DNA of 64,000 nt from an uncultured Mucispirillum sp. (GTDB taxonomy: Bacteria; Chrysiogenota; Deferribacteres; Deferribacterales; Mucispirillaceae): the NCBI GenBank assembly GCA_944325215.1, contig CALUZC010000007.1, positions 1 to 64,000 of the forward strand. The letters are read 5' to 3'. Position numbers and translations under genes: made by a program. The notes under the pieces were generated by a model. The model worked only from the letters and a program-made list of their open reading frames with translations. It was not told where the DNA came from and did not search any database. Below are positions 32,625 to 50,131 of this stretch, in pieces. Numbering within the stretch: the stretch's first letter is position 1; each line of letters begins with the position of its first letter.

Positions 32625-32724
32625 TCCAGCCACCTTTTCTTATTCCTTGCTACTCGCTCGGGAAAAGGTGTCCTCGCAAAAACCGCTCGTCACACTTGCT
32701 AAAGCAAGCCTATCCATAGGCTTG
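32625..32724. repeat. Dispersed structured repeat element, copy B
   Basis: It starts TCCAGCCAC; the stem CACCTTTTC (32631-32639) pairs with GAAAAGGTG (32662-32670). It then has TCCTCGCA...CGCTCGTC to 32691 and a second hairpin CAAGCCTA-TCCA-TAGGCTTG (32705-32724). Copy A lies at 50038-50131 and preserves both stems with changed bases. Confidence 0.8.
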
Positions 32725-32880
32725 TATTCGGCTTAATTTTTTTGTGCTATACTGCGTTGGTTAAAAATCTTACAGCCTTAGATAAACTTCTATCGCAAAA
32801 ATCTTTAAGCCTTACTAAAAACTTCATTGCTTAATTTCAAAGCCGAATTCATTAAATTTTTATTTTAATCCATCTCAATA

Positions 32881-33070
32881 GTAGTATATGTTAGTGCATA
32901 CTTTTAAATATTTTTATAAAAATATTTTAAAAACTTTTACATGCTTTTTATGATATAAACTATAAAAAAATATTTTATTATTAATTAATTATGTATATTG
33001 TTAACAAATTATATACTTATGTGTATACTTTATAAAATTTAAAAATTTTACACAAAGGACATTTTGACCC
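32881..33070 (+). other. AT-rich stretch without a gene
   Basis: Between the repeat array and the promoter of the repeat lipoprotein there is only AT-rich sequence with T- and A-runs. I see no gene and no RNA feature. Confidence 0.5.
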
Positions 33071-33099
33071 TTGACAACTGTAATTTAAAATATTACACT
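33071..33099 (+). promoter_or_regulatory. Promoter of the repeat lipoprotein gene
   Basis: Consensus TTGACA (33071-33076), 17 bases, TACACT (33094-33099). This is the best -35 in the window, suggesting strong expression. The ATG follows 32 bases after the -10. Confidence 0.65.
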
Positions 33100-33130
33100 T
33101 GAGTAACTAAATATTATTGAGGTAAAGAAG

Positions 33131-33595
33131 ATGAGAAAATTAAGTTTAGTAATCCTTTCAGTTGCATTTATAGTATTTATAACTGCAGGTTGTAAAAAAA
33201 CTGAAACAACTGAAACTACTCCAGCTGAAACTACTCCAGCTACAGAAACTCCAACAACAGAAGTTCCAGCTACTGAAACTCCAGCGACAGAAGTTCCAGC
33301 GTTAGAAACTCCAGCTACAGATATGCCAGCAACTGACGCACCAGCTACAGATATGCCAGCAATTGATGCACCAGCTGCAGATATGCCAGCTACTGATGCT
33401 CCTGCTACAGATATGCCAGCAACTGATGCACCTGCAACAGATATGCCAGCAACTGATGCACCTGCAACAGATATGCCAGCAACTGACGCACCTGCTACAG
33501 ATATGCCAGCAACTGACGCAACAGCAACAGACGCTCCAGCAGCTGATGCAACTGCAACAGATGCACCTGCTGTAGATAATCAATCATTACAATAA
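33131..33595 (+). CDS. Repeat lipoprotein rich in Ala-Thr-Asp-Pro
   Basis: A 154-residue lipoprotein: signal helix ending FITAGC (Cys at residue 21), then only low-complexity sequence. A ten-residue repeat (PATDMPATDA) corresponds to nearly identical 30-bp DNA units at 33311-33520 (seven), preceded by two glutamate variants at 33251-33310. The mature chain is acidic, extended and unstructured, as in spacer or surface stalk proteins. Copy number can change by slippage or recombination. No globular domain is present. Ends before a hairpin terminator. Confidence 0.85.
   Translation: MRKLSLVILSVAFIVFITAGCKKTETTETTPAETTPATETPTTEVPATETPATEVPALETPATDMPATDAPATDMPAIDAPAADMPATDAPATDMPATDAPATDMPATDAPATDMPATDAPATDMPATDATATDAPAADATATDAPAVDNQSLQ
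33251..33520 (+). repeat. Tandem 30-bp coding repeat, nine units
   Basis: Units align exactly every 30 bases; units at 33311 and onward share the block ACAGATATGCCAGC with few changes, mostly synonymous (gct/gca, gat/gac). The first two carry GAAGTTCCAGC instead. It lies inside the lipoprotein gene. Confidence 0.9.
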
Positions 33596-33619
33596 GATTA
33601 TTTATAATTTTATAAGATT

Positions 33620-33648
33620 AAGCTGCTCTTAATTGGGCAGCTTTTTTA
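33620..33648 (+). terminator. Terminator between lipoprotein and ogt genes
   Basis: AAGCTGC (33620-33626) pairs with GCAGCTT (33637-33643), followed by six T. The convergent ogt gene ends in the T-run. Confidence 0.8.
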
Positions 33649-34146
33649 TTTTATAATTATATTTTCCAGTTTCAAAAGATACTCTTTTATATGGATACCT
33701 GCTGCATAGCCTTTTAGAGAGCCGTCTTTTCCTAAAACTCTATGGCAGGGTATAAGTATTGATATTTTATTACGACCTATGGCGTTTCCTACTGCTTGGA
33801 AAGGGGCTGATTTTAAACACCTGATTTTTGCTACTTCTAATGCAATATTATAATACGTTGTTGTTTTTCCATATGGGATTTTTAAAAGCATAGCCCATAC
33901 AAGTTTTTGAAATTCAGTGCCTTCTATCTCTAAGGGTATATTGTGGCTTGTATTTTTACCATTAAAATAATCATCTAAATATAGTTTTATATTATATATT
34001 ATTTTATTTTCATGATGTTGTGCATCTAATAAAGAAATATTTGGAAAATACTTTTGGTTATAAAAATAAAGCCCCTTTAAACCCTTATTACTGGCATATA
34101 ATAATATTTTACCAACTGGGCTTATATAATCATTAATAAAAAGCAT
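33646..34146 (-). CDS. ogt: Methylated-DNA-protein-cysteine methyltransferase
   Basis: A 166-residue Ogt-type suicide repair protein. The active site ILIPCHRVLG contains acceptor Cys134, and the helix-turn-helix and asparagine hinge precede it (PFQAVGNAIGRN). It removes alkyl groups from O6 of guanine. The N-terminal ~75 residues are the family's poorly conserved domain. It lies three bases after a zinc-ribbon membrane protein gene. Confidence 0.92.
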   Translation of the reverse strand: MLFINDYISPVGKILLYASNKGLKGLYFYNQKYFPNISLLDAQHHENKIIYNIKLYLDDYFNGKNTSHNIPLEIEGTEFQKLVWAMLLKIPYGKTTTYYNIALEVAKIRCLKSAPFQAVGNAIGRNKISILIPCHRVLGKDGSLKGYAAGIHIKEYLLKLENIIIK

Positions 34147-34149
34147 ATA

Positions 34150-34350
34150 TTAACCTCTAAAAAACAAGTTTTTCTTTTCTGTAATTTTACCACAGGCACT
34201 ACAGGCATATACTTTATACCCTTTTTTAGTTTCATACTCTTTTTTTCTGTTAATATAACGTGACTGGCAGTGGGGGCATCTATGCACTGTAAAAAACCTT
34301 AAAAATAAGTATGTACCAATTATAAGCATTAAAAGTATAATAAGTTCCAT
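34150..34350 (-). CDS. Small membrane-anchored zinc-ribbon protein
   Basis: 66 residues starting MELIILLMLIIGTYLFLRFF, so one N-terminal membrane helix, then a zinc ribbon with two CxxC pairs (CPHCQSRY and CSACGK). The ATG at 34350 has GGAGAG upstream; the ORF continues 14 codons further but without a good start. The function is unknown. Probably in one transcript with ogt. Confidence 0.7.
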   Translation of the reverse strand: MELIILLMLIIGTYLFLRFFTVHRCPHCQSRYINRKKEYETKKGYKVYACSACGKITEKKNLFFRG

Positions 34351-34423
34351 TTTTCTCTCCAAAACAGCACTTATTATAATACAGTTACACAAGTTATTCT
34401 AGTGTTTTTTATATTGCATATGA

Positions 34424-34429
34424 TATAAT
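34424..34429 (+). promoter_or_regulatory. Extended -10 for the membrane-protein array
   Basis: TGATATAAT gives an extended -10 about 40 bases before ATG 34469; the -35 region (AGTGTT at 34401) is poor, as is common with extended -10 elements. Confidence 0.4.
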
Positions 34430-34468
34430 TTTATTTTATACTTATACTACTACAAAAAGGAAAAGTAT

Positions 34469-36250
34469 ATGCAAAAAGAAGAAAGTATTTTATCATCTCT
34501 TAGTAATGATATTGATTTATTTAAAACACCACTGCTTACAAGAAAACAGTATGCAGCATCTTTTTTTAAACTATCTTTACTTATAGTGTTATTTGTTGTT
34601 TTATTTTTTCTTTTTTTAAATCTTGGAAGCGTAGTTATTATTCTATCTAGTATAATATTTATACCTTTTTTATCTTTCATGTTATTTTATTTTAATATAC
34701 TTTTTATTAAAAGATATTTAGATACATCTATGCCTGTATTTTTACTTTTTCTTATTCCTATATTATATACATTATCTTGTTCATTTGGCATGGTATATGA
34801 ATATTTTATTTGGGAAAGTCCTATAAAATGGTTTTTTAGGGCTGGTATTTGGCTGTTACCTGCTTTACTGCTTTTTATATTAGTATTCATTATGCCATCA
34901 TCTAACAAAGAACGCCCAATTATTACAAAAATAAAAAACAGCTTATATATTAAGAAAAATATTTTATACCCAATAAATAATATTTTAACATTAAAATTTA
35001 AAAATCGCATAAATAGTAAACAGTTTATTTATGGGCTTTTATTTACATTTATACCACTTTTATTATTTTTATTACACAAAGATATAATAGAGCTTTTAAA
35101 AAATATATACACTCAAATATTTCATTTTAAAAATTTTGCTTTTGAAGCATATGAAATGAGAGAGTATCATGATAAATATTTTTCACCACGGTTTCCTGTA
35201 ATTATCTTTTATGGAACTTTCTTTTTTATATTAATTAGTTTTCTTGTTTTATATATTAATTCTTATAAAAATATATCTAAAAATAAAGTAGCTGTATTTA
35301 TTATTGGTTTGATTTTAGTATTTATTTTACCTTATTCATTTTATATGTTTTATGGTTATATGGTTAAAGATTATGAAGATATGTTTAATTCTGGTAGAGA
35401 AAGCTTAATCTTATTTTTAAATTCAAAATCTGATAGATATTTACTATTAGTTTCTATTATTCTTTTATTTATATATTATAAGCTTATTAGTGTAAAAAAT
35501 AACTTAAAAACACCGCAGATTAATAGAATATCATTTAAAGAATATATTATAAAAGTAATAGTGTTAGCTGGTATATATATGGTTATACAAGATGTATTAT
35601 ATTATGTTGAACATTATATAAACTTTATATATCTGCCTGATAATGTGTTAAGTCTGTCAGATATTATATATCTGTTTATAAAAATACAATTTATTTATTG
35701 TATGCTTTATTACACTATGAAAAGAATTAATAATGCCATAATAAATAAATTAGTTATAATATCATTTATTATATATGTGCTGTTACCATATTACATTAAT
35801 TTTATGTCTTTTTATATAGTAATATATATTCTTTTACTGATTATTGCAGGTGCTTATATTCCTAAATACGCAAATGAAAGAAAATATGTATTTAATAATG
35901 AAAAGTATAAAAAGTTAGCAGATTATTTTAATATATCAAACAAAATAGAAAATATATTATTTTTCAAACTTAAAAGAGTAATCAGCATAAGAGAGTTTAT
36001 ATTATCTTTTATATTTATTTTGATTATGTATGTTTATATTATTCCATTTGACTGGTTAAAATATATGCTTATAAATATGACTATTTATCTTCCAACAGAA
36101 GTCCCAAGCGAAAATGGATATGTAACAGATTATTTTATATCACCCATGTTATATATGTATATTATTTTAGTGGTGTATTCAATATTTGTGCTTATGTGTA
36201 ATGGGATATATACAATATATATGAAAAGAAAAGGTGTAATTAATGGATAA
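34469..36250 (+). CDS. DUF805-like polytopic membrane protein, double length (array member 1)
   Basis: A 593-residue protein with about 14 hydrophobic segments. Two DUF805-like beginnings are visible: FKNRINSKQFIYGLLFT near 170 and LKRVISIREFILSFIFI near 500, plus NRISFKEYIIKVIVLAG near 350. The block ERKYVFNNEKYKKLADYFNIS joins them. The three following genes share the same blocks, so this looks like a duplicated or fused version. DUF805 proteins have no known function; this assignment is from the R-x-x-E/K-Y-W-like starts and H-x-x-x-N-K segments only. Overlaps gene 2 by eight bases (ATGGATAA). Confidence 0.7.
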   Translation: MQKEESILSSLSNDIDLFKTPLLTRKQYAASFFKLSLLIVLFVVLFFLFLNLGSVVIILSSIIFIPFLSFMLFYFNILFIKRYLDTSMPVFLLFLIPILYTLSCSFGMVYEYFIWESPIKWFFRAGIWLLPALLLFILVFIMPSSNKERPIITKIKNSLYIKKNILYPINNILTLKFKNRINSKQFIYGLLFTFIPLLLFLLHKDIIELLKNIYTQIFHFKNFAFEAYEMREYHDKYFSPRFPVIIFYGTFFFILISFLVLYINSYKNISKNKVAVFIIGLILVFILPYSFYMFYGYMVKDYEDMFNSGRESLILFLNSKSDRYLLLVSIILLFIYYKLISVKNNLKTPQINRISFKEYIIKVIVLAGIYMVIQDVLYYVEHYINFIYLPDNVLSLSDIIYLFIKIQFIYCMLYYTMKRINNAIINKLVIISFIIYVLLPYYINFMSFYIVIYILLLIIAGAYIPKYANERKYVFNNEKYKKLADYFNISNKIENILFFKLKRVISIREFILSFIFILIMYVYIIPFDWLKYMLINMTIYLPTEVPSENGYVTDYFISPMLYMYIILVVYSIFVLMCNGIYTIYMKRKGVING

Positions 36251-37112
36251 CCAAATAGAAAATAAAACTGATGTAAGAATAAGTATAGAAAAATATTTAA
36301 TAAATATTGGAATATTATTTATAGTATTTCTTTTTTGTTCAAGTATTTTTATTATGCCAGCTTTAGGAATATTTGAACTTACTGCTTTAATACCCCTTGG
36401 AGTGCTTTCTATTTATTTAATATATTTTTCATCAAAAAGGATAGCTCATGCAGTAATAAATAAATTGATAATTTTGCCATTTATATTTTTGTTTTCATAT
36501 TATATATTAAATATTACAAATCCAAAATATATATTAGCCATATTATACATAGTTATATATATGATAATATTAATACTTATTTCCTTGTTTTTACCAAAAA
36601 AAATAAATGAAAGAAGATATATTTTTAGTAGTGAAAAATACATACGTATTGCAGATTTTTTTGATATTAGTAAGCCTATGGAAAATATATTACTTTTTAA
36701 ATTTAGAAACAATATTTCAAGGCATAAATATTTTGTTGTTACACTATTTATAATATTGGCAAATATATTTATTTTTATTGATTTATTCATTATTATACAG
36801 TTGGCTGGTATATTAGGTTATCATGGTTTTGGTCTTGGAAGTTTTATTTTAATATTTATTTTTATTGAGTATGGAATTTTAATGTTATGTGCATTTATAA
36901 TACTTATCTCAAATAGATTAATAAATATATTTGGAACTAATAAATATAATATCTTAATATTTACCATAATATTTGTATTATTCTATTTTTTACATTATTT
37001 AATACCTTATAATGATATTTATGATATTTATAATTTTTATATGGTTGCTGCTTTCGTATTAATATTATTTATTGGTATTATTCCACCAAAAAAGGATAAG
37101 GTAAATGGATAG
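36243..37112 (+). CDS. DUF805-like membrane protein (array member 2)
   Basis: 289 residues, about seven hydrophobic segments. Shared blocks are VRISIEKYLINIGIL at the N-terminus, SSKRIAHAVINKLII, ERRYIFSSEKYIRIADFFDIS, FKFRNNISRHKYFVVTLF and the end IGIIPPKKDKVNG. Function is unknown. The ATG lies inside the eight-base overlap with the previous gene (ATGGATAA), and the stop overlaps the next ATG the same way, so translation is coupled along the array. Confidence 0.7.
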   Translation: MDNQIENKTDVRISIEKYLINIGILFIVFLFCSSIFIMPALGIFELTALIPLGVLSIYLIYFSSKRIAHAVINKLIILPFIFLFSYYILNITNPKYILAILYIVIYMIILILISLFLPKKINERRYIFSSEKYIRIADFFDISKPMENILLFKFRNNISRHKYFVVTLFIILANIFIFIDLFIIIQLAGILGYHGFGLGSFILIFIFIEYGILMLCAFIILISNRLINIFGTNKYNILIFTIIFVLFYFLHYLIPYNDIYDIYNFYMVAAFVLILFIGIIPPKKDKVNG

Positions 37113-37947
37113 AGAAATAGAAAATATAAAAGATAACAGGATAAGTTTTCAAGAATATAAAAAAGGTGTATTGCGAGTACTGCCTATTTTTGTTTTATCA
37201 GTTATGTTAATTGTTTTTCCTATATTTTCCATATTACCTTCAGGTGTATTTGTATTATATCTACTTTATTATACAAATCTTCGTATATCTCATGCTGTAA
37301 TTAATAAACTTTTAATTATTCCGTTTATAGTAATATATAATTTTTTTATTTTATTTGTTACTGAAATCTATATTTTGTATATAATACTTGCTTTAATATT
37401 ATATATATCATTTATTATTCTGCTTGCAAAATATCTGCCTAATTATATCGGTGAAAGAAAATATCTTTTTAATAATGAAAAATATAGGCGTATTGCTGAT
37501 TTTTGTGATATATCAAAACCAATGTATAATATATTATTTTTTAAATTTAATTACTTTATTAATAGAAAAGAATATTTTTCTATAATTATCTTTTTAATAA
37601 TTGTAAATGTTTTTATATATTATGATATTAGACTTTTATATGTTGTACGAGATTATATGTATTATAAACTTGATTTCACATTTTTTAGACCTGATGCATT
37701 TTTCGTGCTTATTGTAATTCTTATATATTTTATAATGTTATTGTATATACAGTTTATTGTATTTTTTATAAGATTAACAAGCATTTTTGGAACTGCAAAA
37801 TATAATATATTAGTGATTGTATTTTTAGGTGTATTAAAATATTTTTTGATCAAGTATATATCTGCTGAATATTCCCTGGCAATTTATGTTACATTCTTTT
37901 TAATTGCAGGTATACTGCCACCAAAAAAGGATAAGGTAAATGGATAA
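37105..37947 (+). CDS. DUF805-like membrane protein (array member 3)
   Basis: 280 residues, paralog of its neighbours: NRISFQEYKKGVLRV, TNLRISHAVINKLLIIPF, ERKYLFNNEKYRRIADFCDIS, FKFNYFINRKEYFSIIIF and IAGILPPKKDKVNG. The RKEYF motif matches DUF805's R-K-E-Y-W. About seven membrane segments are seen. Function is unknown. Confidence 0.7.
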   Translation: MDREIENIKDNRISFQEYKKGVLRVLPIFVLSVMLIVFPIFSILPSGVFVLYLLYYTNLRISHAVINKLLIIPFIVIYNFFILFVTEIYILYIILALILYISFIILLAKYLPNYIGERKYLFNNEKYRRIADFCDISKPMYNILFFKFNYFINRKEYFSIIIFLIIVNVFIYYDIRLLYVVRDYMYYKLDFTFFRPDAFFVLIVILIYFIMLLYIQFIVFFIRLTSIFGTAKYNILVIVFLGVLKYFLIKYISAEYSLAIYVTFFLIAGILPPKKDKVNG

Positions 37948-38887
37948 TGTAATAAAAGATAAAAGAGTAAATAGAATTAGTTATAATGAATATAAATATG
38001 GGTTATTAAAAACATTACTTGTTTTTATTGTTATCTTTTCTGTAATATTATACGGTAATGTATCAGGTTTCCTATATATTGTTGGAGCTATGTTATATTA
38101 TAATTCTTCCATATCTCTTATATTTAGTATATTTTTATTAATATTTTGTGTTTTCTTGTTATACTTTTTATATTATACATCAAAAAGAGTAGCTCATGCA
38201 GTAATAAATAAGATTATTATACTGCTGTTTATATTTTTAGTTTCATATTATATATTAAATATTATAAATATTAAATATGCAGTTTTATATATTTTGTTAT
38301 ATATGGTATCAATTATAGTCTTTGCAAAATTTTTTGTAGAAAAAATAAGTGAAAGAAAATATTTATTTAATAACGAAAAATATAAATTGATGGTAGATTA
38401 TTGTAATATATCAAAGCAGATAGAAAATATATTATTTTTTAGGTTTACTGGTAATATTACAAGAAAAGAATATTTTTTAACTATATTATTTATAATATTA
38501 GTAAATGTATTTATTTTTCTTGATTTATATTTGGTTTTAAAATTAGCATATATTTTAGAATATAACAGTTTTAGTAATGATTTTGATGAACTTGTTAAAT
38601 TTATGGCGAAATTATATGCACCTTTTGTATTATATGCTTTTTTTATGCTGTTATTTAATAGATTAACAAATATATTTGGCAGTATGAAATATCATGTCTT
38701 TATTTTTATAATAATATTTCTAATTTTTTATTTTACATTAATATATAAGCATAATATTGGCTTTATCAATGATTATAAATTGTATATTAATATAGTATTA
38801 TTTGCTTTCATTATATTATTTTTCGGTATTATACCACCCAAAAAAGAGTATGAAGGTGATGAATACTATACAAATAACGTCCGTTAA
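37940..38887 (+). CDS. DUF805-like membrane protein (array member 4)
   Basis: 315 residues with the same blocks: NRISYNEYKYGLLKT, TSKRVAHAVINKIII, ERKYLFNNEKYKLMVDYCNIS, FTGNITRKEYFLTILF, NRLTNIFGSMKYHVF and IIPPKKEYEGDE. It is the last member and has an extra C-terminal tail of about ten residues instead of the ...DKVNG end that overlaps a next gene. About eight membrane segments. Confidence 0.7.
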   Translation: MDNVIKDKRVNRISYNEYKYGLLKTLLVFIVIFSVILYGNVSGFLYIVGAMLYYNSSISLIFSIFLLIFCVFLLYFLYYTSKRVAHAVINKIIILLFIFLVSYYILNIINIKYAVLYILLYMVSIIVFAKFFVEKISERKYLFNNEKYKLMVDYCNISKQIENILFFRFTGNITRKEYFLTILFIILVNVFIFLDLYLVLKLAYILEYNSFSNDFDELVKFMAKLYAPFVLYAFFMLLFNRLTNIFGSMKYHVFIFIIIFLIFYFTLIYKHNIGFINDYKLYINIVLFAFIILFFGIIPPKKEYEGDEYYTNNVR

Positions 38888-38992
38888 GTAGAATAAATTT
38901 TATAGTATATGAAAGTGGTGATTATTATATATAATTTTACTTGATTTATTGCATTATTTTCTTATAATCATAATTGGAGCGTTGGAGTAGGA

Positions 38993-41089
38993 ATGACAAA
39001 AGATGATAAGAAAATAGTTCGCAATGTAATATTATTTTGTATTATATTTTCAGTATTTTTTACAGTTTATAGAATAGCCACCTTACTTGAAAAACAGTCA
39101 GAAAATAAAAAAAGTGATAATGTTACAGCCATTGATAATTTTACACCAAGCCAAAATATTAATATGCTTGAAAATGTAAATGGTTATAATAATATAAGTG
39201 GTCAAAATATTATAGATAACAGTTCTGTTATAAATAGCAATACATTTAATGATAATAATATAAATGGTGTAAGCGATTTAAAATCTTTTGATAATATTAG
39301 TGGGCTGGACCAAATCTCAAACCCTTATGATAATCTTGATAATATGCTCTATGATGCTGTATTAAAAGGTGATTTTGAAGGTGTAAGGCGATATGTTAAT
39401 ATGGGAGCTAATATTAACAGTATAGATAATAATGGTAATACTATAATCTATAGAATGGCTTTACAAAAAGATTTAAATATGGACCAGTTAAATAGTATAA
39501 ATTATCTGCTTGTAAAAGGGGCAGATGCAAATAAAGCAAATTATGATGGTTATACTCCACTTACTGCTCATCTTTCATCAAACCTTTTTAATAAAGAGTT
39601 TATAGATAGGTTATTAAAATATCATGCAGAAGTAAACGCCACAGATTTTGAAGGTGATACACCACTTCATTATGCTGTTATGAATAATAATTTAGATGCT
39701 GTTACATATTTAATAGATAATGGTGCTAATGTAAATGTAAAAAATAAAGACAGTATAACACCACTTCATATTGCAGTGCAGCAGAAAAATTATGATATAA
39801 CAGGCCAGCTTTTACATAATGATGCTGATAGAAATACTAAAAATATTGATAATGTAAGCGCATTGGATTTGGCTAAAAAAAGTGGTGATGTAGATTTATA
39901 TAAACTTTTTAGCATAACTAAGGAAGATTTAGAAAAGGATAAAATTCATGAAGAGCTTGTGCAGGCTATAAATGAAAAAATGGGGCTTCCTGCAGTTAGA
40001 GCCATATCTGAAAATGTGGCAAAGGGTTTTATTAATAGACCTATAAAGCAGGATAAAGGCTCATCATCTATTGAAGGCAAGTTTGTTGGTGAAAACCCAA
40101 CCCCTTTAATTGCTGCCCTTTATTTTAATTATAATAATATTGCTAAAGCATTAATAAAAGCAGGGGCAGATGTTAATAAACCTAACGACTACCCATATTA
40201 TTCACCTTTAATGGTTGCAAGTGATACAAATAATATGGAAATGGTAAAAGAGTTATTAAATAAAGGGGCAGATGTAAACTACGCTTCTAAAATGGACGGA
40301 ATTACAGCTTTAAATGTAACTGATAAAGCAGATATTGCAGAAGTATTGCTTAAATCTGGTGCTGATGCTAATGTGGTTGCAAATAAATCATGCCTTTCAC
40401 CTTTACAGCTTGCTGTTATTAATAATAACTATGATTTAGCAGAAACATTACTTAAGCATGGTGCTAATGCAAACCATGTAGACTGCAATGAATATAAACC
40501 AGTTATTGCCAATGCAATAGATACAGCAAACCCTGCTCTTGTTAGGCTTTTACTTCAATATAATGCAGGAGTTAATACTGAAATTGGGGAAGATTTATCT
40601 GTAAAAGTAATAGATTATGCAAAATCAAAAGGCAACCAGCTTATTATTGATATGATAGAAGAACGTATTAAAGAAACTGCTCCAAAAAAAGTAGATATGG
40701 GAGTAGAGATAGTTCAAGATAATTTTATTAAAAATAATGTTCAAAATGATAACAAAACTATAAAAGATAATATTACATTAAAAGATAATAAGACGTTAAG
40801 TAATAATAATTCCCTGCATGATAATAAAACAGTAAATGTCCCTATTCAAGATAATAAAACATATAAGCAAAATGATAATGTAAACATAAATCAAAATATG
40901 ATTAAGGATAATAAAACAGCTACAAAACCAGTAAATAAACCTAAAATTGATAATCAGTCATTAAATAATATAATGCTAAATAATCAAATTAATAAAGATA
41001 ATGCTAGCAATATTATAAATAATAATATAAAAGATAATAAAAGCAATGAAATTGATAATATAATGAATAATATTATTAATGAATTATAA
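38993..41089 (+). CDS. Membrane-anchored ankyrin-repeat protein
   Basis: 698 residues: a membrane helix (~10-28) with a basic n-region, an Asn-rich low-complexity linker (~35-110), ankyrin repeats at ~115-305 and ~365-545 (for example GDTPLHYAVMNNNLDAVTYL, and DSITPLHIAVQQKNYDITG), and a C-terminal ~130-residue Asn/Lys-rich tail with about seven D-N-K-T/S motifs. The helix probably leaves most of the chain in the periplasm. Ankyrin repeats bind proteins; the partner is unknown. GTAGGA precedes the ATG. It follows the membrane-protein array by about 105 bases. Confidence 0.85.
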   Translation: MTKDDKKIVRNVILFCIIFSVFFTVYRIATLLEKQSENKKSDNVTAIDNFTPSQNINMLENVNGYNNISGQNIIDNSSVINSNTFNDNNINGVSDLKSFDNISGLDQISNPYDNLDNMLYDAVLKGDFEGVRRYVNMGANINSIDNNGNTIIYRMALQKDLNMDQLNSINYLLVKGADANKANYDGYTPLTAHLSSNLFNKEFIDRLLKYHAEVNATDFEGDTPLHYAVMNNNLDAVTYLIDNGANVNVKNKDSITPLHIAVQQKNYDITGQLLHNDADRNTKNIDNVSALDLAKKSGDVDLYKLFSITKEDLEKDKIHEELVQAINEKMGLPAVRAISENVAKGFINRPIKQDKGSSSIEGKFVGENPTPLIAALYFNYNNIAKALIKAGADVNKPNDYPYYSPLMVASDTNNMEMVKELLNKGADVNYASKMDGITALNVTDKADIAEVLLKSGADANVVANKSCLSPLQLAVINNNYDLAETLLKHGANANHVDCNEYKPVIANAIDTANPALVRLLLQYNAGVNTEIGEDLSVKVIDYAKSKGNQLIIDMIEERIKETAPKKVDMGVEIVQDNFIKNNVQNDNKTIKDNITLKDNKTLSNNNSLHDNKTVNVPIQDNKTYKQNDNVNINQNMIKDNKTATKPVNKPKIDNQSLNNIMLNNQINKDNASNIINNNIKDNKSNEIDNIMNNIINEL

Positions 41090-41111
41090 TAAAAAGTTAT
41101 TGGAGTTTAAC

Positions 41112-42164: not shown

Positions 42165-42234
42165 TATCACTTTATAATTGCATTATATATATATGTATGT
42201 TATAAAAGGCAGATATTATATATTGGAGGAAATA

Positions 42235-43287: not shown

Positions 43288-43293
43288 ATAGCA

Positions 43294-43328
43294 AAAGAAA
43301 GGCTTATTTTTTAAGCCTTTCTTTATTT
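43294..43328 (+). terminator. Terminator-like hairpin between paralogs 2 and 3
   Basis: AAAGAAAGGCTTA (43294-43306) and TAAGCCTTTCTTT (43312-43324) pair over 13 bp with a short T-rich loop and a T-rich tail. It could also attenuate into paralog 3. Confidence 0.75.
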
Positions 43329-43342
43329 TAAGTTATTATATT

Positions 43343-44317
43343 ATGAAAAAACGCATAATTATAATATCATCTATACTTATTGTGTTATTTGCTGCTGGTT
43401 TTATTACTATTCAAATAATATATGGCACAATAAACTACTTTTCAAAAACAGTGGAAAGTTCTTTTAATTTATCACTTAAAAATATAAAGAAGAAATCAGA
43501 AGATTTTAAGCTGACATATAATGATTTTAAATGCAGTGGTAAAAGAAGTATAGAATGTTATGGTAAAAAAATCTTGTATGATAAGGACAGGTATAAAATA
43601 GAAGTTAAAGACATTAATTTTATATTAACACCTTATTACAAAAGTGCAGATTTTTCTTTTAATGCTAAGGCAGCATATAAAATATTTGTAGATGAAAGCT
43701 TTAAATCACTGCCTATCACTATAGAATGTTATGGCAAGCTTGATTTAATGCCTGAAAAAACATATATTAAAGCAGATTATTGGTGTAATACGTTTATTAA
43801 TTATTTAAAATCATATCATACATCTACTATATATTTTAAAAATAAAGAATTTAATGAAAAAAATATTTATGATTTTGCAAAAAAATTTGATACTTTTATT
43901 ATTGAAAAATTATACTTAAAAAAAATAGCAGGCACTTCTTTTGCAGTGGATTATATAAAAGGGTATATTAAAAGTAAGGATTTATTTCAGGAATATGTGA
44001 ATATTATGCGCAGGTTTGATATAAACTATGAATATGACAGGGAAAGTGCCATATTATCTACTGCAGGTTTTAGTGCAGAAAAGTTTTTTGTCAGGTCTTT
44101 TGCTGGTAAAGATAGTTTAGAATATGTATTAGCTGAAAAAATTACTGATAATATTAAAAATATAATTCATAAAAATCATAACAGGCTTTCATACAATATA
44201 ACAAGAAAAGGTGGCAAGCCTATAGAAAATTTTTTCATTAACAGTATGAAACAGGCAGTTAATGTTATTTATAATAATAGAAGCTATAGTATAGATATTC
44301 ATACAAGTAAAAAATAA
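43343..44317 (+). CDS. Membrane-anchored Cys-paired protein (paralog 3)
   Basis: 324 residues: helix (IIIISSILIVLFAAGFITIQ), then YNDFKCSGKRSIECYGKK (cysteine pair) and TIECYGKLDL/YWCNTF (second pair). The C-terminal end HKNHNRLSYNITRKGGKPIENFFIN aligns with KGHNKVDIHVKLKDGNTIDDVFFI of paralog 2. Located after a hairpin; no clear Shine-Dalgarno precedes ATG 43343, so it may depend on read-through or a weak start. Confidence 0.65.
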   Translation: MKKRIIIISSILIVLFAAGFITIQIIYGTINYFSKTVESSFNLSLKNIKKKSEDFKLTYNDFKCSGKRSIECYGKKILYDKDRYKIEVKDINFILTPYYKSADFSFNAKAAYKIFVDESFKSLPITIECYGKLDLMPEKTYIKADYWCNTFINYLKSYHTSTIYFKNKEFNEKNIYDFAKKFDTFIIEKLYLKKIAGTSFAVDYIKGYIKSKDLFQEYVNIMRRFDINYEYDRESAILSTAGFSAEKFFVRSFAGKDSLEYVLAEKITDNIKNIIHKNHNRLSYNITRKGGKPIENFFINSMKQAVNVIYNNRSYSIDIHTSKK

Positions 44318-44714
44318 TAGTATACAAATAATAGAAACTTGTAACAATACGTTATAAAGTTGCGACTTTATGTATGTTTGTATAGGAAACAATTTTAAAG
44401 ATAATTATTATAAAATAATTGTATAATTTAGTAAAGCAGCTGTTATAATTATGATGATAATATGTGTAATAAGCAAATTTTATTAATCTCGAAAAATAAA
44501 ATAAATGAACTCATTACAAATAAAAATATCTATATAATTGGTATAGAATTATAAACTTACTTCATATTATATGTTGCAGTTCTTTGTGGATATGATAGAG
44601 TAATAGCTAGTTTACTAAAAATTTGCACATATATAATAATCTATACTTTAATATCTTTATATGGTTTATATTATAGTTAGATAATGAAAAATCTTAATTT
44701 ATTCAAGGATATAT
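44318..44714 (+). other. 397-base intergenic region
   Basis: I see no gene here. A perfect 7-bp hairpin ATAAAGT-TGCG-ACTTTAT at 44354-44371 may end the preceding transcript. The rest is AT-rich; no tRNA, riboswitch or repeat matching other parts of the window was noticed. Confidence 0.5.
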
Positions 44715-45155
44715 ATGCAGGTAAAAATTAATATGGAAAATCTGAAAGTTGAATTTTTCTCTGATAAAACGAAAGAAACTATATATATAAGAGATATTGT
44801 TTTTGTGCAGGAACAAGGTTTTATTGATGAATATGATGAACTTGACTGTAAAAGTACACATATTTTAGTAAGTGATAAGAATCTTCCAATAGCAACAGGC
44901 AGATTTTACAAACATAAAGATAACAGCTGGATAGTAGGCAGATTTGCAGTTATTAAAGAGTATAGGCATATTGGTATTGGAAGTTTTTTAATGCAAAAGA
45001 TAGAAGAAAAAATAAAAGAAAATGGTGGTGAACTTATAGAGCTTTCTGCACAGCTGCAGGCAAAAGGATTTTATGAATCACTAGGCTATAAAGCTTTAGG
45101 CAATATATATTATGACCAGCATGCAGAACATATTCATATGGAAAAAAAATTATAA
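44715..45155 (+). CDS. GNAT family N-acetyltransferase
   Basis: 146 residues, a single GNAT domain. The acetyl-CoA loop is EYRHIGIGSFLMQKIEEK (R/Q-x-x-G-x-G/A form), preceded by the strand WIVGRFAVIK and followed by QLQAKGFYESLGYKALG. A helix with QEQGFIDEYDELD resembles the ElaA/YjcF group. AAGGA lies six bases before ATG. The acceptor is unknown. Confidence 0.82.
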   Translation: MQVKINMENLKVEFFSDKTKETIYIRDIVFVQEQGFIDEYDELDCKSTHILVSDKNLPIATGRFYKHKDNSWIVGRFAVIKEYRHIGIGSFLMQKIEEKIKENGGELIELSAQLQAKGFYESLGYKALGNIYYDQHAEHIHMEKKL

Positions 45156-45217
45156 AAAAGACTTTATCAAAAAAAATATATGTGTTAAAGTGGACAATAG
45201 TCAAGATGAGGTTTTAA

Positions 45218-45898
45218 ATGGTAAATATAATAATTCTTTCTGTAGTTATTGTTATTTTAATAGGAATGTTGGTATATTTTTTCGTTAATAGAAAGAAGAT
45301 TAAAATAAAGCTGTTAGAAGAAGAAGCTGCAAAAGGTAACCCTGCCACATTACTGGCATTAGGTTTAATGTTTTATTCTGGTGTTAAAATAGATGAAGAT
45401 AAAGAAAAAGGTATTAAGTATATTAAGCAGGCGGCAGAATCTGGTAATGCTCAAGCCCAATATTTATACAGTGGTATTATTCTAGGTTCAAATGAAAACC
45501 AAGAGCCTACAAAAGAGCAGTTATCAGAAGCTGCTTTATGGATAGAAAAATCAGCTGAAGGTGGTTTTCTAACAGCTATAACAACCCTTGCAAATATGTA
45601 TGCAGAAGGCAAAATAATCCCAAAAAATGTTAAAAAAGCACAATATTATTTTCAAAAAGCAGCACTTATGGGTGATGTTCAGTCGCAGGTAACTGTTGCT
45701 GGTTTTAAGCATTTTAGTATTGACGGCAATAAAAAGGAAGCATATGCATGGTATAAGGTAGCAGAACAAAATGGTTCAGAATATGCAAAAGAAACAGCAG
45801 AAAAATTGCTTTCAGAATTAAGTGATGAAGATAAGCTTCAGGCATATAAAATAGCTGATGAATATATAATTAAATACGGAAAAGCACAAGTGCATTAG
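45218..45898 (+). CDS. Sel1-like repeat protein with N-terminal membrane anchor
   Basis: 226 residues: one membrane helix (3-22), then four or five Sel1/TPR-like repeats (ALGLMFYSGVKIDEDKEKGI, AAESGNAQAQYLYSG, SAEGGFLTAITTLANMYAEG, and AALMGDVQSQ). These helical repeats mediate protein contacts; an anchored form is usually periplasmic or faces the cytoplasm near envelope complexes. GAGG precedes ATG 45218. Confidence 0.85.
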   Translation: MVNIIILSVVIVILIGMLVYFFVNRKKIKIKLLEEEAAKGNPATLLALGLMFYSGVKIDEDKEKGIKYIKQAAESGNAQAQYLYSGIILGSNENQEPTKEQLSEAALWIEKSAEGGFLTAITTLANMYAEGKIIPKNVKKAQYYFQKAALMGDVQSQVTVAGFKHFSIDGNKKEAYAWYKVAEQNGSEYAKETAEKLLSELSDEDKLQAYKIADEYIIKYGKAQVH

Positions 45899-45914
45899 TT
45901 TTGGTAGCAGTTTT

Positions 45915-46343
45915 ATGGTGCAGAGATATATTTTATCAGACTATTCAAAGCTTTTTGATATTTGGGAAAGAGCAGTTAAAAAAACTCATCATTTTTTATC
46001 AAAAGAAAGTTATGAGCATATTCGTTTGATTTTGCCATCATATTTTCAGAAAGTAGAAGTCTATGTTTATAAAAAAGCTGGTAAAGATGTAGCATTTATG
46101 GGTGTAAAAGATGATAAGCTTGAAATGCTTTTTTGCGATCCAGATTATTTTAGGCAGGGTATAGGTTCATTTATGATTGATTATGCACTTCATTTTTTAA
46201 ATATAAAATATGTTGATGTAAATGAGCAGAATTTACAGGCCATAGAGTTTTATAAACACCATGGTTTTAAAGAAGTAGCAAGAACAAAAAGTGATAATTT
46301 TGGATATCCAATAATTCATCTTGCCCATGAAAGTGGTATGTAG
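45915..46343 (+). CDS. GNAT family N-acetyltransferase (YjaB-like)
   Basis: 142 residues. The pattern KKTHHFLSKESYEHIRLILP...VYVYKKAGKDVAFMGVKDDKLEMLFCDPDYFRQGIGSFMIDYA and the end NLQAIEFYKHHGFKEVART is that of small GNATs such as YjaB; the CoA loop is RQGIGS. It lies 16 bases after the Sel1 gene and ends one base before the M23-like gene's ATG. Confidence 0.8.
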   Translation: MVQRYILSDYSKLFDIWERAVKKTHHFLSKESYEHIRLILPSYFQKVEVYVYKKAGKDVAFMGVKDDKLEMLFCDPDYFRQGIGSFMIDYALHFLNIKYVDVNEQNLQAIEFYKHHGFKEVARTKSDNFGYPIIHLAHESGM

Positions 46344-46344
46344 T

Positions 46345-47088
46345 ATGAGAACTTTATTAACTTTTATACTTACTTTTATCTTATGTATATTTATAATAAC
46401 AGAAGCATTTGCTCAAGATAATCAATGCACAAAGCCTGTTATATTTCCGTTACTTTCAAAGCCTGTTAATGATATTGGTCAAGAATATGATAATTATGAC
46501 TGGCGAAGTGAACACGGTGCAAATCAGGCAGTATATAAAAGCTATAGAATACGTAAAAGCAGTAAGAAAAATATTACAAAAAAAGCATTTCATGCAGCAC
46601 GAGATTTATATACAGATGTATATAATGATAAAGGAAATTATGGATTATTAAAGTCTAGAAATTATGTTAGGGCAGTAAGTGAAGGTAAAGTTTTAGAAGT
46701 TGGCTATTTTTATGCAGGAACTTATAAAGTAACAGTGCAGCATACAACATGTGATGGAAGAAGTTTCATTATAAGATATGGTGAGTTAGACCCTGCAAGC
46801 ATAAAAGTTGCAGTTGGTGAAACTGTAAAACAAGGGCAGATTTTAGGCAGACCGGGTTTTTTATCTAAAAAAAATAAGAAAAAAGAAACTGTGCCAATAA
46901 ATGTAATAATGGATAAAGTTGTATTTATGCTTCACTTTGAATATTTTGCCAGTGGTGAGCTTAGTAACGAACCATTTTCTGAAGCCTTTAGTGATAATAG
47001 GTTTGATAGAAGAAAAGATCTTGATGACAGCTTAAGTATTTTAGAAGAAGGATATATTAATTCTTTTGGGGAGCCTGTGAAAAAATGA
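46345..47088 (+). CDS. Exported M23-like peptidase, variant catalytic site
   Basis: ATG 46345 gives a signal peptide (cleavage after AFA, residue ~23) and 247 residues; the in-frame ATG at 46321 lies inside the preceding gene. The LytM fold is visible: FHAARDLYTDV (zinc ligands H83, D87), AVSEGKVLEVG, the strand IIRYGELD and MLHFEYF (ligand H197). The canonical histidines of YxHL and HLHFE are replaced by Glu147 and Met195. M23 enzymes cut peptidoglycan crossbridges; this variant keeps the metal triad but lacks the standard catalytic pair. It overlaps the next gene by four bases. Confidence 0.75.
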   Translation: MRTLLTFILTFILCIFIITEAFAQDNQCTKPVIFPLLSKPVNDIGQEYDNYDWRSEHGANQAVYKSYRIRKSSKKNITKKAFHAARDLYTDVYNDKGNYGLLKSRNYVRAVSEGKVLEVGYFYAGTYKVTVQHTTCDGRSFIIRYGELDPASIKVAVGETVKQGQILGRPGFLSKKNKKKETVPINVIMDKVVFMLHFEYFASGELSNEPFSEAFSDNRFDRRKDLDDSLSILEEGYINSFGEPVKK

Positions 47089-47621
47089 AAAAATTACTAA
47101 TATATGTTATAACGCTGCTTTCTTTTACAAATATATATGCTTCTCCCTATGCTGATGATTACCTTTATGAAGATATACTAGAGTATATTGAAAACCCAGC
47201 AAAATATTCAAATAATTATGTTAATGGATATGTAAATAATAACCCTGATATAATAGTGGGAGCTTTTATAGAAAAGGCTTTTTCTGTTTATGAAAAAGAA
47301 GAAAAATATACGCCTGATTTTAAAAGCTGTGGGGAAGGCTGCTATAAAGATGATAATGCACATGATATTTTAAATGCATATCATAAGTTTTTTTATATGT
47401 TTGCTATTGCTGAAGAAATAACTTCTGTATTAATACAAAACCCACAAGAAAATGATAATATTGAATACACTCTAAAAAATAAAAAAATAAAGTATAAATG
47501 GAATAATAAAAACAAATTAGTTATAAATATAGACAGCAACACTGTTGAATTTATAAAACAAAATAAAGGTGTTGTTATAAAAACAGATATGAAGTCTTTA
47601 AAAAAATACAGGCTGAATTAG
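47085..47621 (+). CDS. Exported hypothetical protein, coupled to the M23-like gene
   Basis: 178 residues with a signal peptide (KKLLIYVITLLSFTNIYAS, cleavage near residue 19). The mature part is helical (YLYEDILEYIENPAKYSNN), with one cysteine pair (SCGEGC), and ends in a basic tail. I recognise no family. The ATGA overlap with the peptidase gene indicates coupled translation and a likely 1:1 partner in the periplasm; inhibitor, immunity protein or cofactor are all possible. Confidence 0.65.
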   Translation: MKKLLIYVITLLSFTNIYASPYADDYLYEDILEYIENPAKYSNNYVNGYVNNNPDIIVGAFIEKAFSVYEKEEKYTPDFKSCGEGCYKDDNAHDILNAYHKFFYMFAIAEEITSVLIQNPQENDNIEYTLKNKKIKYKWNNKNKLVINIDSNTVEFIKQNKGVVIKTDMKSLKKYRLN

Positions 47622-47633
47622 TAAAGGTGATAT

Positions 47634-48263
47634 ATGAAAAAATTATTGTTATTATTTATTTTCATAACTGCTACAAACAGCTTTGGCTATAATGAACAAG
47701 ATATTGATTTATCTAACCATTCAAACCAGCATGGAGTTATTTTCCAAGCCTTAGATAAAAAGGAATACTATAAAAATATTACATACAGCACCATAAGGGA
47801 AAGTAAATGTTTAGGAGCCGATTATAAAACCATAAAAAGAACGGCTAATATTTTAAAGGAAAAAGAACAGCCTTTCTGGGTTTATAAATACTGCAAAAGC
47901 AGTGAATATGAATATAACACGACAAATATTATAGAAGCATATAACAGCTATCGTTTTGATTTAAATAAGCGTTTAATAAATATGAAAGAGTATCAAATAT
48001 TAGATAATATAGTATCATATCTTCCTGTAAATATAAAATCAGGGAGCAATTATTTATATTATCTTGGCATGAGAAATAATATTATAGAATGGCAGGATAA
48101 AAATAATGAGTTAAATATTACACTACCTATTATGTTTAGCGGCCTTATTACAAAAATGACATTGGAAAAAGATAAAGTAAAAGTATATGAAATATTTACA
48201 TATGACAGGCCTGACAATATGCCAAAAGAAAATGAAGGGTATAAAGATTTATTTGTTAAATAA
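47634..48263 (+). CDS. Exported hypothetical protein, third gene of the M23-like run
   Basis: 209 residues, signal peptide (KKLLLLFIFITATNSFGY), then a mature chain of ~190 residues with two cysteines (KCLGADY and KYCKSSE). No family is recognised. AAAGGTGAT precedes ATG 47634, 12 bases after the previous stop. Its proximity suggests a job with the peptidase and its coupled partner. Confidence 0.65.
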   Translation: MKKLLLLFIFITATNSFGYNEQDIDLSNHSNQHGVIFQALDKKEYYKNITYSTIRESKCLGADYKTIKRTANILKEKEQPFWVYKYCKSSEYEYNTTNIIEAYNSYRFDLNKRLINMKEYQILDNIVSYLPVNIKSGSNYLYYLGMRNNIIEWQDKNNELNITLPIMFSGLITKMTLEKDKVKVYEIFTYDRPDNMPKENEGYKDLFVK

Positions 48264-48428
48264 ATCATACAAATCATATTTATTATATTAATAAAACTAT
48301 TTTATATGTAACAATTTTTTAAATCTGAAAAGAGCTATCTATTTTATATTGTTCAAAAATTTTTCATAAAATAATTTGACTTATTATATTTAATAATGTA
48401 TAACTCCATATAAAAGGGGGATATATTT

Positions 48429-48680
48429 ATGCAGGATTTTTTATTTGATAAAGTTAATATTATACCAGAAGCTAAAAGAAGAAGCAGAAGCCGTGGTCGT
48501 GGTTTTTTCGGTGGTATATTATCAACAATTGGTGCTGTTATTATAATAATTTTGGCTGTAATAATGCTGCCTTTTATATTAATTAGAAATAGAAGAAACC
48601 CTTCCAATGATGCATTAATAAACGATAATAATATTAATAATACTCAAAGTCATAATGATAAGATAAATCTAAAAAAATAA
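48429..48680 (+). CDS. Small single-membrane-segment protein
   Basis: 83 residues: a strongly basic stretch (KRRSRSRGRGFF), one membrane helix (GAVIIIILAVIMLPFILI), then an Asn-rich tail. AAGGGGG lies about ten bases before ATG. The function is unknown. It ends before a strong terminator, so it is separate from the lysis cassette. Confidence 0.6.
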   Translation: MQDFLFDKVNIIPEAKRRSRSRGRGFFGGILSTIGAVIIIILAVIMLPFILIRNRRNPSNDALINDNNINNTQSHNDKINLKK

Positions 48681-48713
48681 CATCTACTTATATTCTCATG
48701 ATATTAAACCAAT

Positions 48714-48745
48714 AAACCACCTAAAATTTAGGTGGTTTTTCTTTT
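48714..48745 (+). terminator. Terminator before the lysis cassette
   Basis: AAACCACCTAAA and TTTAGGTGGTTT (48714-48738) form a 12-bp stem with a one-base centre, followed by a T-rich tail. Confidence 0.88.
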
Positions 48746-48818
48746 TTCTGACATATGGGACAAAACGGACATAGTATATTTTGCTACTGCTATAAATAGT
48801 AGTAAAGCAGGAGGCAAA

Positions 48819-49187
48819 ATGGATAAAATTTATACAGGAATTATAGTCGTTCTTGTTATCATAATTATTTCTTTATCTACTTATATGCTGATTAAATCAG
48901 GAATATATAAAAATATGATTAATGAACTGCAAACAGAAAATAAGTCATTAATTACAAGGTTAAGTAGTGCAGAAAGCTATATTGATATACAGAATTTAAA
49001 AATATCAGAACACAGTAAGAATATGGAAAAAGCAGAAGAAATATACACATTAAAAATAAAATCAATAAATGAAAAATATTCTGCTTTAGAAAAAAAATAT
49101 AAAAATATCAGCTTACTACAGTGTAATGAAGTATTAAAGATAATAGATAATAACCAACGGAGGTATATATATGGTTACACAGATTAA
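48819..49187 (+). CDS. Inner-membrane spanin-like (Rz-like) protein
   Basis: ATG 48819 with GGAGG upstream; the longer ORF start at 48732 lies within the terminator. 122 residues: a membrane helix (~5-26) then a long heptad-patterned coiled coil (INELQTENKSLITRLSSAES... ISEHSKNMEKAEEIYTLKI). This is the layout of phage i-spanins, which span the periplasm. It overlaps the next gene by 17 bases, as Rz/Rz1 pairs often do. Sequence similarity is not strong by eye; the call is from topology and neighbours. Confidence 0.65.
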   Translation: MDKIYTGIIVVLVIIIISLSTYMLIKSGIYKNMINELQTENKSLITRLSSAESYIDIQNLKISEHSKNMEKAEEIYTLKIKSINEKYSALEKKYKNISLLQCNEVLKIIDNNQRRYIYGYTD

Positions 49188-49578
49188 AGAAACAGTAAAA
49201 AAATTATATGAAAAAATAAAAGAAAAAATAATGAAACTATATGAAGTTATAAAAAATTTCATAAAAAATACAGCAGAAGATTTTTCAATAATTGATGTAG
49301 AAGAAGGGCAGGCTCGCTGGAGTTTTAACTGGTGGGTTCAAAAAAGTTTTAAGTGGATAACAGCCATTATTCTTGCAGCAGCCGCTCTTTTTATATGGGG
49401 CTGTTCTACACATAATGGCAGTGTAAAGTATTACCCTGTTAATATTCCTGTAAGCTGTCAAATAGATATGCCTGAAAAGCCAGTATATAGTGAAAATATT
49501 GTTGTTACAAATTTAAGTATTTTATCATACGCTTCAAAGTTGGAATCAGCCTTAAAAGCGTGCAGAGGTGATAAATGA
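49171..49578 (+). CDS. Outer-membrane spanin-like (Rz1-like) lipoprotein
   Basis: 135 residues. A hydrophobic helix ending ALFIWGC provides a lipobox-like cysteine at ~residue 78, and the downstream part (YYPVNIPVSCQIDMPEKPVY... NLSILSYASKLESALKACRGDK) matches the usual end of o-spanin-type proteins, where a short helix with a final Cys follows a proline-rich region. Unusually, ~58 residues of charged amphipathic sequence precede the hydrophobic segment; an internal ATG at 49231 would shorten it by 20. It overlaps the holin gene by four bases. Confidence 0.6.
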   Translation: MVTQIKETVKKLYEKIKEKIMKLYEVIKNFIKNTAEDFSIIDVEEGQARWSFNWWVQKSFKWITAIILAAAALFIWGCSTHNGSVKYYPVNIPVSCQIDMPEKPVYSENIVVTNLSILSYASKLESALKACRGDK

Positions 49579-49910
49579 TAGAGAAAGCATTTAATTTATC
49601 TGCAGAAATATGGCAATGGATATGGCTGTTTTTAGTATCTTTTACAGGTGGTGTGGTAGGTTTTATTACAAAAATATCACCTACATTAAAAGGGCGTTCT
49701 TTTCGTTCTAAATTTGCCGCTCTTTGCATGGGTATGATAAACAGTATGTTTATAGCATATATTAGCTATGAAATATTATTAAGTGTTATTGATAATCATG
49801 GTCTTGCAGTAGCACTTTCAGGTATGGCAGCATTTACAGGAACAGACCTTTTAATCATAACGCAAAATAAAATTGTAGAACTTGTAAAAAGAAAAATTGA
49901 TAATATATAG
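49575..49910 (+). CDS. Phage holin-like protein
   Basis: 111 residues with three membrane segments (~12-32, 45-70, 75-92) and a charged C-terminus (KNKIVELVKRKIDNI), as in class I/III small holins. The block ALSGMAAFTGTDLLIITQN resembles the LydA/HP1-type holin end. Holins open the inner membrane for the endolysin. Overlaps the spanin-like gene by four bases. Its stop is eight bases before a truncated copy of the endolysin start. Confidence 0.7.
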   Translation: MIEKAFNLSAEIWQWIWLFLVSFTGGVVGFITKISPTLKGRSFRSKFAALCMGMINSMFIAYISYEILLSVIDNHGLAVALSGMAAFTGTDLLIITQNKIVELVKRKIDNI

Positions 49911-49917
49911 GGGGGGA

Positions 49918-49962
49918 ATGTTTAAATTATCAACACTATCCCAAGCAAAATTAAATACTTGT
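49918..49962 (+). repeat. 45-bp direct repeat, left copy
   Basis: It matches 50155-50199 with one mismatch (C versus T at the 24th base). The two flank a 192-base insertion. Confidence 0.92.
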
Positions 49963-49977
49963 ATTATAAAACAATAA
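49918..49977 (+). pseudogene. Truncated duplicate of the endolysin 5' end
   Basis: ATG 49918 has a GGGGGGG ribosome binding site and encodes MFKLSTLSQAKLNTC, identical to the intact endolysin's first 15 residues, then diverges (IIKQ) and stops at 49975-49977. The DNA match is 45 bases with one C/T mismatch. A structured repeat element follows, separating the truncated from the intact copy. Confidence 0.88.
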
Positions 49978-49978
49978 C

Positions 49979-50005
49979 AAAAAATCTGTCCGTAGATTTT
50001 TTGTT
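49979..50005 (+). terminator. Terminator-like hairpin between holin and endolysin
   Basis: AAAAAATCT (49979-49987), loop GTCCGT, AGATTTTTT (49994-50002), then GTTT. It lies inside the inserted segment and may stop transcription from the spanin-holin part. Confidence 0.6.
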
Positions 50006-50037
50006 TAGGCGAGCTTATGAAATAAATTCATTTAATA

Positions 50038-50131
50038 TCCAGCCACTTTTTCTATTTCCTACGCTACTCGCTAGGGAAAAAGTGTCCTCGCATAAAACGC
50101 TCGTCTTACTAAAGAGCCACTTCCTGTGGCT
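50038..50131. repeat. Dispersed structured repeat element, copy A
   Basis: It starts TCCAGCCAC; the stem CACTTTTTC (50044-50052) pairs with GAAAAAGTG (50076-50084). It then has TCCTCGCA...CGCTCGTC to 50105 and a hairpin AGCCAC-TTCCT-GTGGCT (50115-50131). Copy B at 32625-32724 has the same plan; the changed position in stem 1 is compensated on the other arm. Confidence 0.82.

Follow-up and report, generated by a model that had tools for sequence, protein, structure and literature searches.

A miniature hairpin element of Mucispirillum with one conserved fold, many stems and copies nested in other hairpins

Two copies of element B and their surroundings

The stretch considered here, hereafter the window, comprises 64,000 nucleotides of an uncultured Mucispirillum sp. 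(GenBank assembly GCA_944325215.1, contig CALUZC010000007.1, positions 1 to 64,000) and carries two copies of a short repeat, which we call element B, each lying inside a member of another hairpin family, element A. B is about 64-66 bp long, with the form CC-AGC...GCTCG-CC. A covariance model built from a ten-copy alignment (A3), termed R1, matched it in the window at 32626-32691 (92 bits) and 50039-50105 (89 bits) and nowhere else, the places to which an initial annotation had assigned the copies of a dispersed structured repeat. Copy 1 reads CCAGC...GCTCGTC on the plus strand, and in both copies the folding strand is probably the minus one. The main stem, written on the plus strand, is formed in copy 1 by CACCTTTTC (32631-32639) and GAAAAGGTG (32662-32670) and in copy 2 by CACTTTTTC (50044-50052) and GAAAAAGTG (50076-50084), so that a T-A pair is exchanged for a C-G pair, the compensatory change that had drawn attention to the repeat. 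The tip of copy 1 (32645-32661, minus strand) reads CC-GA-GC-GAGTA-GC-AA-GG, a GNRNA-like pentaloop on a 2-bp helix that covaries in the family, followed by a purine-purine internal loop; its tail holds a mini-hairpin, GC-GGTTTTT-GC (32676-32686, minus strand), whose 2-bp helix covaries as well.

A second hairpin, described in the initial annotation as standing at the same place in both copies with different bases, is indeed present at 32705-32724 (AAGCCTATCCATAGGCTT) and 50115-50131 (AGCCACTTCCTGTGGCT). The two hairpins do not, however, make up a single element: the first is B, and the second is hairpin H3 of the A copy that hosts it (CAAGCCTATCCATAGGCTTG in copy 1 and AGCCAC-TTCCT-GTGGCT in copy 2, both assigned to the minus strand). 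The remainder of A, likewise on the minus strand, lies on the other side of B. In copy 1 it consists of hairpin H1 (TATTCT-ATCCAT-AGAATA on the plus strand) and a conserved middle (32564-32623; 73.2 bits with R2, the covariance model of the A hairpin), and in copy 2 of H1 (AAAAAATCT-GTCCGT-AGATTTTTT on the plus strand) and a divergent middle (49972-50030; 44.1 bits).

One fold, many stems

Blast of the window's genome (G000; G, C and L labels denote genomes, contigs and retrieved loci) returned further B copies, several of them with other stems (CACTTTTTC, CAATATTTC, GAGATTTTC and GGGATTTTT). The covariance-model search proposed in the initial annotation found 22 copies in this genome, so that the element is dispersed, as had been claimed, and not confined to two copies. 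Across ten genomes of Mucispirillum, a genus of the mouse gut, R1 matched 2 to 39 copies each, at least 224 in total, whereas 50 genomes from other genera, five of them within the same family, gave no match. Of 25 stretches retrieved with a degenerate pattern from 84,980 species, 23 are named Mucispirillum; a match in Flavobacteriales was dismissed as chance (13.8 bits). No Rfam 15 family matched the window or copy 1 at the gathering threshold or at E<=1, and the phage and plasmid collections searched for B gave no match. A 6.2-kb viral contig (L184, IMGVR_UViG_3300029905_000198) contains two B copies, belonging to subfamilies II and III (see below), together with an A element, laid out as in L136.

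In Ezakiella coagulans (Firmicutes; L187 600-1600 and L185 1470-1560) B-like hairpins with the stem GCATTTC of subfamily II (33 bits with R1) form a tandem array next to tRNA-Ser genes; its units measure about 120 bp and are each bordered by fragments of the T-arm and 3' end of tRNA-Ser. Mucispirillum loci L016, L049 and L057 hold a B copy beside tRNA-Ser(GGA) with inverted T-arm copies. The association of B with tRNA genes is limited to the tRNA-Ser locus, in three species.

In the ten-copy alignment 96.9% of the pair cells hold standard pairs and 8 of 13 pairs are changed on both sides, values that none of 500 shuffles reached; when the partner is slid by one column, pairing falls to 58%. 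The proposal that structure is kept while sequence changes is thus borne out by covariation well beyond the first two copies. The collection comprises 152 distinct B copies with 129 distinct cores, of which 125 could be parsed; anatomy, flank and context counts, here and below, were taken on loci retrieved by search. On the plus strand of the window the element has the layout CC-AGC-[stem]-5-nt bulge-CC-TC-nn-TACTC-n'n'-TC-GG-[stem']-TCCTC-GC-A6C-GC-TCG-CC. Over the seven inner pairs of the main stem the parsed cores contain 39 distinct stems, in which 850 of 875 pairs are Watson-Crick, and the two small helices covary too, as CC/GG, CT/AG, GC/GC and GT/AC in the tip and as GC/GC, GT/AC, AC/GT and AT/AT in the tail. 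Invariant are the pentaloop (TATTC or TACTC), the TC on both sides of the internal loop, the bulge and the ends; the feet conserved among 123 distinct copies are CCAGC and TCCTCGC on the plus strand, or GAGGA and GCTGG on the minus strand. Four subfamilies can be told apart by their stems and feet: I (CAC.., CAATATTTC, CAGATTTTC and GAGATTTTC), II (CCAGCTAC-GCATTTC or GGACTTC, with the 3' foot TTGCGTCGC), III (CCTGTGCAAATTC) and IV (AAAGCTGCTTTTC).

The few departures from pairing are unevenly distributed between the strands. On the plus (CCAGC) strand the 125 cores show 32 C.A against 4 G.T cells (binomial 2e-6, the cells not being independent), and the ratio is 15 to 3 when each distinct stem and tip type is counted once. 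A C.A mismatch on this strand is a G-U or G-T wobble on the opposite one, whose tip reads CC-GA-nn-GARTA-nn-GA-GG, a GNRNA-like pentaloop with a 2-bp closing helix and flanking tandem purine (G.A) mismatches. Because the mismatches are predominantly C.A and not G.T on the plus strand, and because this tip motif is what selection on a folded single strand would favour, the minus strand relative to the window appears to be the one that folds; the folded form suggested in the initial annotation is therefore retained, on the strand opposite to the one it had written. Calculated DNA energies of the minus strand give the expected fold in both window copies, most strongly in copy 2 (z -2.9), and two copies from relatives have modest DNA folding scores with partly different tips. 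In the one-contig genome G006 the sampled GC skew was so irregular that it did not locate the origin and the terminus, and replication-strand bias was not used as evidence. It is rare among bacterial repeats for the maintenance of shape over sequence to be so directly visible, with 39 stems on one fold and a strand assigned by mismatch types alone.

Matched changes could also be mechanical in origin, if template switching during replication copied one arm of a palindrome onto the other without any selection for shape. Such copying would account for the fact that one-sided changes are almost nil in the main stem and nil in the H1 stem of A. It would not, however, be expected to make the two-base helices of tip and tail covary, to leave the bulge and the purine-purine mismatches in place instead of repairing them to a perfect palindrome, or to produce residual mismatches that are asymmetric between the strands, and we regard it as improbable.

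Insertion at CC and nesting in hairpin loops

Five contexts offer comparable sites with and without B, and in all of them the insertion is at CC (the sign ^ marks the insertion point). In the first, empty ATTCCATCC^TTGGAAT corresponds to filled ATTCTGACC[AGC..CTCG]CCTTGGAAT; in the second, L072 has the empty and L064 the filled form of TAATAATGCTCT^CC^GCATTTTGTTAGG. The third is window copy 2, whose host A lies between lysis genes of a prophage; the stretch is missing from the empty site L013 (C14:44222-44331), ATTTAAGCCC^TTACTAAAG. The fourth is window copy 1, compared with A copies without B, which read AATGCTCC^TGCGCTTGC (the point AATGCTCC^TGC of empty A copies), and the fifth is TTTTCTTCA^TTGCTGC. 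The rule common to these contexts is one B between two CC; exact CC...CC ends are found in 82 of 123 distinct copies, the remainder having mostly TC/CA or CT/TC. The occurrence of both filled and empty sites shows B to be an insertion at CC, in agreement with the mobile miniature element considered in the initial annotation.

The sites of insertion are often hairpins themselves. The stem of A H1 is paired in 100% of cells, with 8 of 11 pairs changed on both sides, and R2 matches 11 to 87 copies per Mucispirillum genome. A presents a TCC loop on freely varying stems: among hairpins of the retrieved loci, 25 distinct 6-bp stems go with an NTCCT and 41 with an NTCCNN loop, against 1 to 12 with permuted loops. 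B is found in the H1 loop of A too, and in the loops of other hairpins; the sequences bordering B are strongly complementary to each other in 22% of 122 distinct copies, compared with 1.6% for re-paired left and right flanks. This preference for loops suggests that B enters single-stranded DNA that hairpins expose. The same A positions hold different B subfamilies (I, II and IV in the H1 loop, I and III at the AATGCTCC site), which favours repeated insertion over one inherited composite.

This last observation, together with the clean empty sites in five contexts, also speaks against a purely passive spread, in which B would have no insertion reaction of its own and would multiply only through duplication and recombination of larger repeat blocks. 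Tandem and composite arrays of the kind that such a process would produce do exist (A units 142 bp apart in L145, copies of G004 sharing their flanks and the copies in a CRISPR-like array on C30), yet as a full explanation passive spread is highly improbable.

Another repeat with a hairpin, TGTCATACTGAG...GCGAAGTATCT, whose paired ends vary and which resembles repetitive extragenic palindromes (REPs) of the TGTC/CGTC type, occurs in L145 (600-900), L105, L107 and similar loci, and its loop appears to host B copies. Several B copies interrupt a CRISPR-like array of TTATAAGGGATTGAAAC repeats at G000:C30:12689-18533 (L023, L026-L028 and L033) and on G007:C15 (L122 and L123), and one of them in turn has a further hairpin element, about 62 bp long (CGGGGTCTTGCCC...GGAGCAAAAAA), nested within it. 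The A-hairpin model gives weak to moderate matches in G040, G032, G017 and other Deferribacterales genera (best 3.0e-8, in G040), which suggests that TCC-loop hairpins occur outside Mucispirillum.

As regards genes, B copies are mostly intergenic, with 38 in co-directional, 12 in convergent and 1 in divergent gaps, and coding sequence was rejected as an explanation of the shared part; 39 apparent overlaps with open reading frames are the output of a permissive 80-aa caller and were not counted as genes. Relative to co-directional genes 22 copies have the same and 16 the opposite orientation, with no preference for the coding strand. A DNA element avoiding promoters would be expected to show this distribution and orientation.

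The orientation also bears on the possibility that B, and A with it, act as RNA, as protein-binding hairpins of transcripts that could bind or sequester an RNA-binding protein. The minus-strand loops of A read ANGGAN or AGGAN on free stems, which is the layout of a CsrA site, and the many stems carried by NTCCT and NTCCNN loops, unlike permuted ones, fit this role, as do the GNRNA-like pentaloop of B with its sheared-type G.A pairs and the excess of C.A over G.T, which matches the G-U tolerance of a minus-strand RNA; each of the seven Mucispirillum genomes searched for CsrA encodes it. Against an RNA role, the orientation of B is unbiased relative to transcription (22 to 16), the strand that folds in window copy 2 is not the one that codes for the lysis genes, genera without B possess CsrA too, and Rfam gave no match. 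We give this explanation some weight, though we think it unlikely; together with arm-to-arm copying it is the main rival to a mobile DNA element.

The lysis genes flanking copy 2 are a holin-like gene and an M15 endolysin gene (50155-50520) of a prophage. To the left of this A/B copy lies the truncated start of an endolysin gene (49917-49962, plus strand), a 46-nt direct repeat 98% identical to the start of the intact M15 endolysin gene (50154-50199, plus strand). The same arrangement recurs on C14 (L013 1450-1660), where the sequence has diverged and the two copies are again alike. Beside copy 1, the window holds at 32245-32540 non-coding tandem repeats of about 119 bp built of AAAATCTTTAAGCCTTA and ATCCGCCTTGTCTA units.

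Candidate enzymes, interpretation and known repeat systems

The initial annotation had suggested a REP-associated tyrosine transposase (RAYT) as a possible partner. This was not borne out: the Y1 transposase family (PF01797) is absent from G000, G003, G005 and G006, all of which carry B. Y1 transposases are encoded in 6 of 10 genomes of the genus, but not in that of the window, and seven Y1 loci elsewhere have no B within the flanks retrieved. Y1 was accordingly set aside as the mover of B, since the window's genome lacks it and B does not flank it where it is present. IS110 transposases (PF02371) were found in none of the ten Mucispirillum genomes, and the serine recombinase/resolvase family (PF00239) in one of ten, as a 618-aa frame in G009, with none in the window's genome; both were rejected, being absent or confined to one genome. 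No dedicated transposase of the tested classes was thus found in the window's genome, the assembly of which is 95% complete, and a gene may have been missed.

Taken together, these observations make it probable that B, some 64 bp long, belongs to the non-autonomous miniature mobile elements and is recognised in the form of a folded single strand. The recognised strand would be GGCGAGCG-T6-GCGAGGA-[stem]-CC-GA-nn-GAGTA-nn-GA-GG-AAATA-[stem']-GCTGG. The machinery would read its shape and a few fixed, mostly unpaired motifs, namely the tip pentaloop with G.A mismatches, the 5-nt bulge, the small tail hairpin and the CC/GG ends, and for this reason the sequence of the stem could drift as long as it pairs. 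The element would insert at the dinucleotide CC, so that either end is bordered by CC, and would often choose a CC that lies open in another hairpin's loop, notably in element A. The folded form would then be single-stranded DNA and not RNA, and the fold would be what the moving enzyme binds; that enzyme may be distant, lost or not yet recognised, and would act in trans.

Four points count against this interpretation. Since B copies are related by descent, paired changes and mismatch types are less independent than their counts imply. GNRNA-like loops with G.A mismatches are typical of RNA as well. In some cases, such as the repeated unit of G004, copies have spread inside larger repeats, and B did not insert independently there. 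Finally, the enzyme was not found and transposition was not seen. A further-reaching proposal, which we offer tentatively and with clearly less confidence, is that an undescribed structure-reading recombinase inserts the folded single strand at CC in hairpin loops, so that hairpins come to nest and selection acts on shape and loop and not on stem sequence. With CC-bounded empty sites and none of the known transposases, the question of what moves REP-like elements without a RAYT can be put to the test, in an organism with an available complete genome.

Among the closest known systems, BOX, ERIC, dRS3 and other mosaic intergenic repeats consist of modular hairpins nested or concatenated in intergenic DNA, a property that B shares; their stem sequence is, however, far more constant within a species, whereas that of B is nearly free. 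IS607, a serine recombinase system, and IS110 recombine at a dinucleotide core and leave an identical dinucleotide at both ends after insertion. B resembles them in its ends, but the distribution of the corresponding genes, none for IS110 and one of ten genomes for the resolvase family, does not match. The ends of IS200/IS605 and the miniature elements derived from them have in common with B an imperfect bulged hairpin near the end, apparent recognition of a single strand, a fixed short target and no long target duplication, and the strand asymmetry of the mismatches would be compatible with their strand-wise cleavage and joining of single-stranded DNA. B differs from them in that four of the genomes carrying it have no Y1 gene, in that the IS200-like loci of the genus are without B, and in having only CC/CC as target and ends in place of a tetra- or pentanucleotide.

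Parallels exist also with REPs and REPINs that have RAYT (Y1) transposases and with GTAG- and CGTC-tagged palindromes (Di Nocera, 2013, PMC3733652; REPINs, PMC3116915). Like them, B is a short intergenic bulged hairpin present in many copies, rare in divergent gaps and divided into subfamilies with different paired stems; at least 10 head-to-head pairs occur, with the CCAGC ends facing each other about 3-15 nt apart (for example in L030, L060, L132 and L152), most B copies being single. It is also, like some REPs, located inside palindromes, an arrangement listed for three species (PMC3733652), and the literature on Mucispirillum repeats or on hairpin-in-hairpin insertion yielded nothing beyond these REP-in-palindrome cases. 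Unlike GTAG-REPs and REPINs, B has no unpaired GTAG (or GYRG) tag at the foot of its stem and no linked RAYT gene. CGTC-REPs, which are likewise without a known mover according to Di Nocera and colleagues (PMC3733652), are defined by a CGTC/TGTC/CCTC tag, an 8-9 bp stem starting with AT, a 4-5 nt loop and a CCA tail (PMC3733652), whereas the stem of B starts with CA, GA, GG or CT and a distance of about 17 nt separates its terminal GTC/GCC from the stem. The REP-like nature proposed in the initial annotation is not supported as far as the defining GTAG/CGTC tags are concerned, and B is set apart further by its 64 bp, its extra tail hairpin, its CC ends and its preference for the loops of several unrelated stems. 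We regard B as a variant of the miniature palindromic elements, which works like a REP or an IS200/IS605-type end and fails the tested marks of both, the tag and the transposase.

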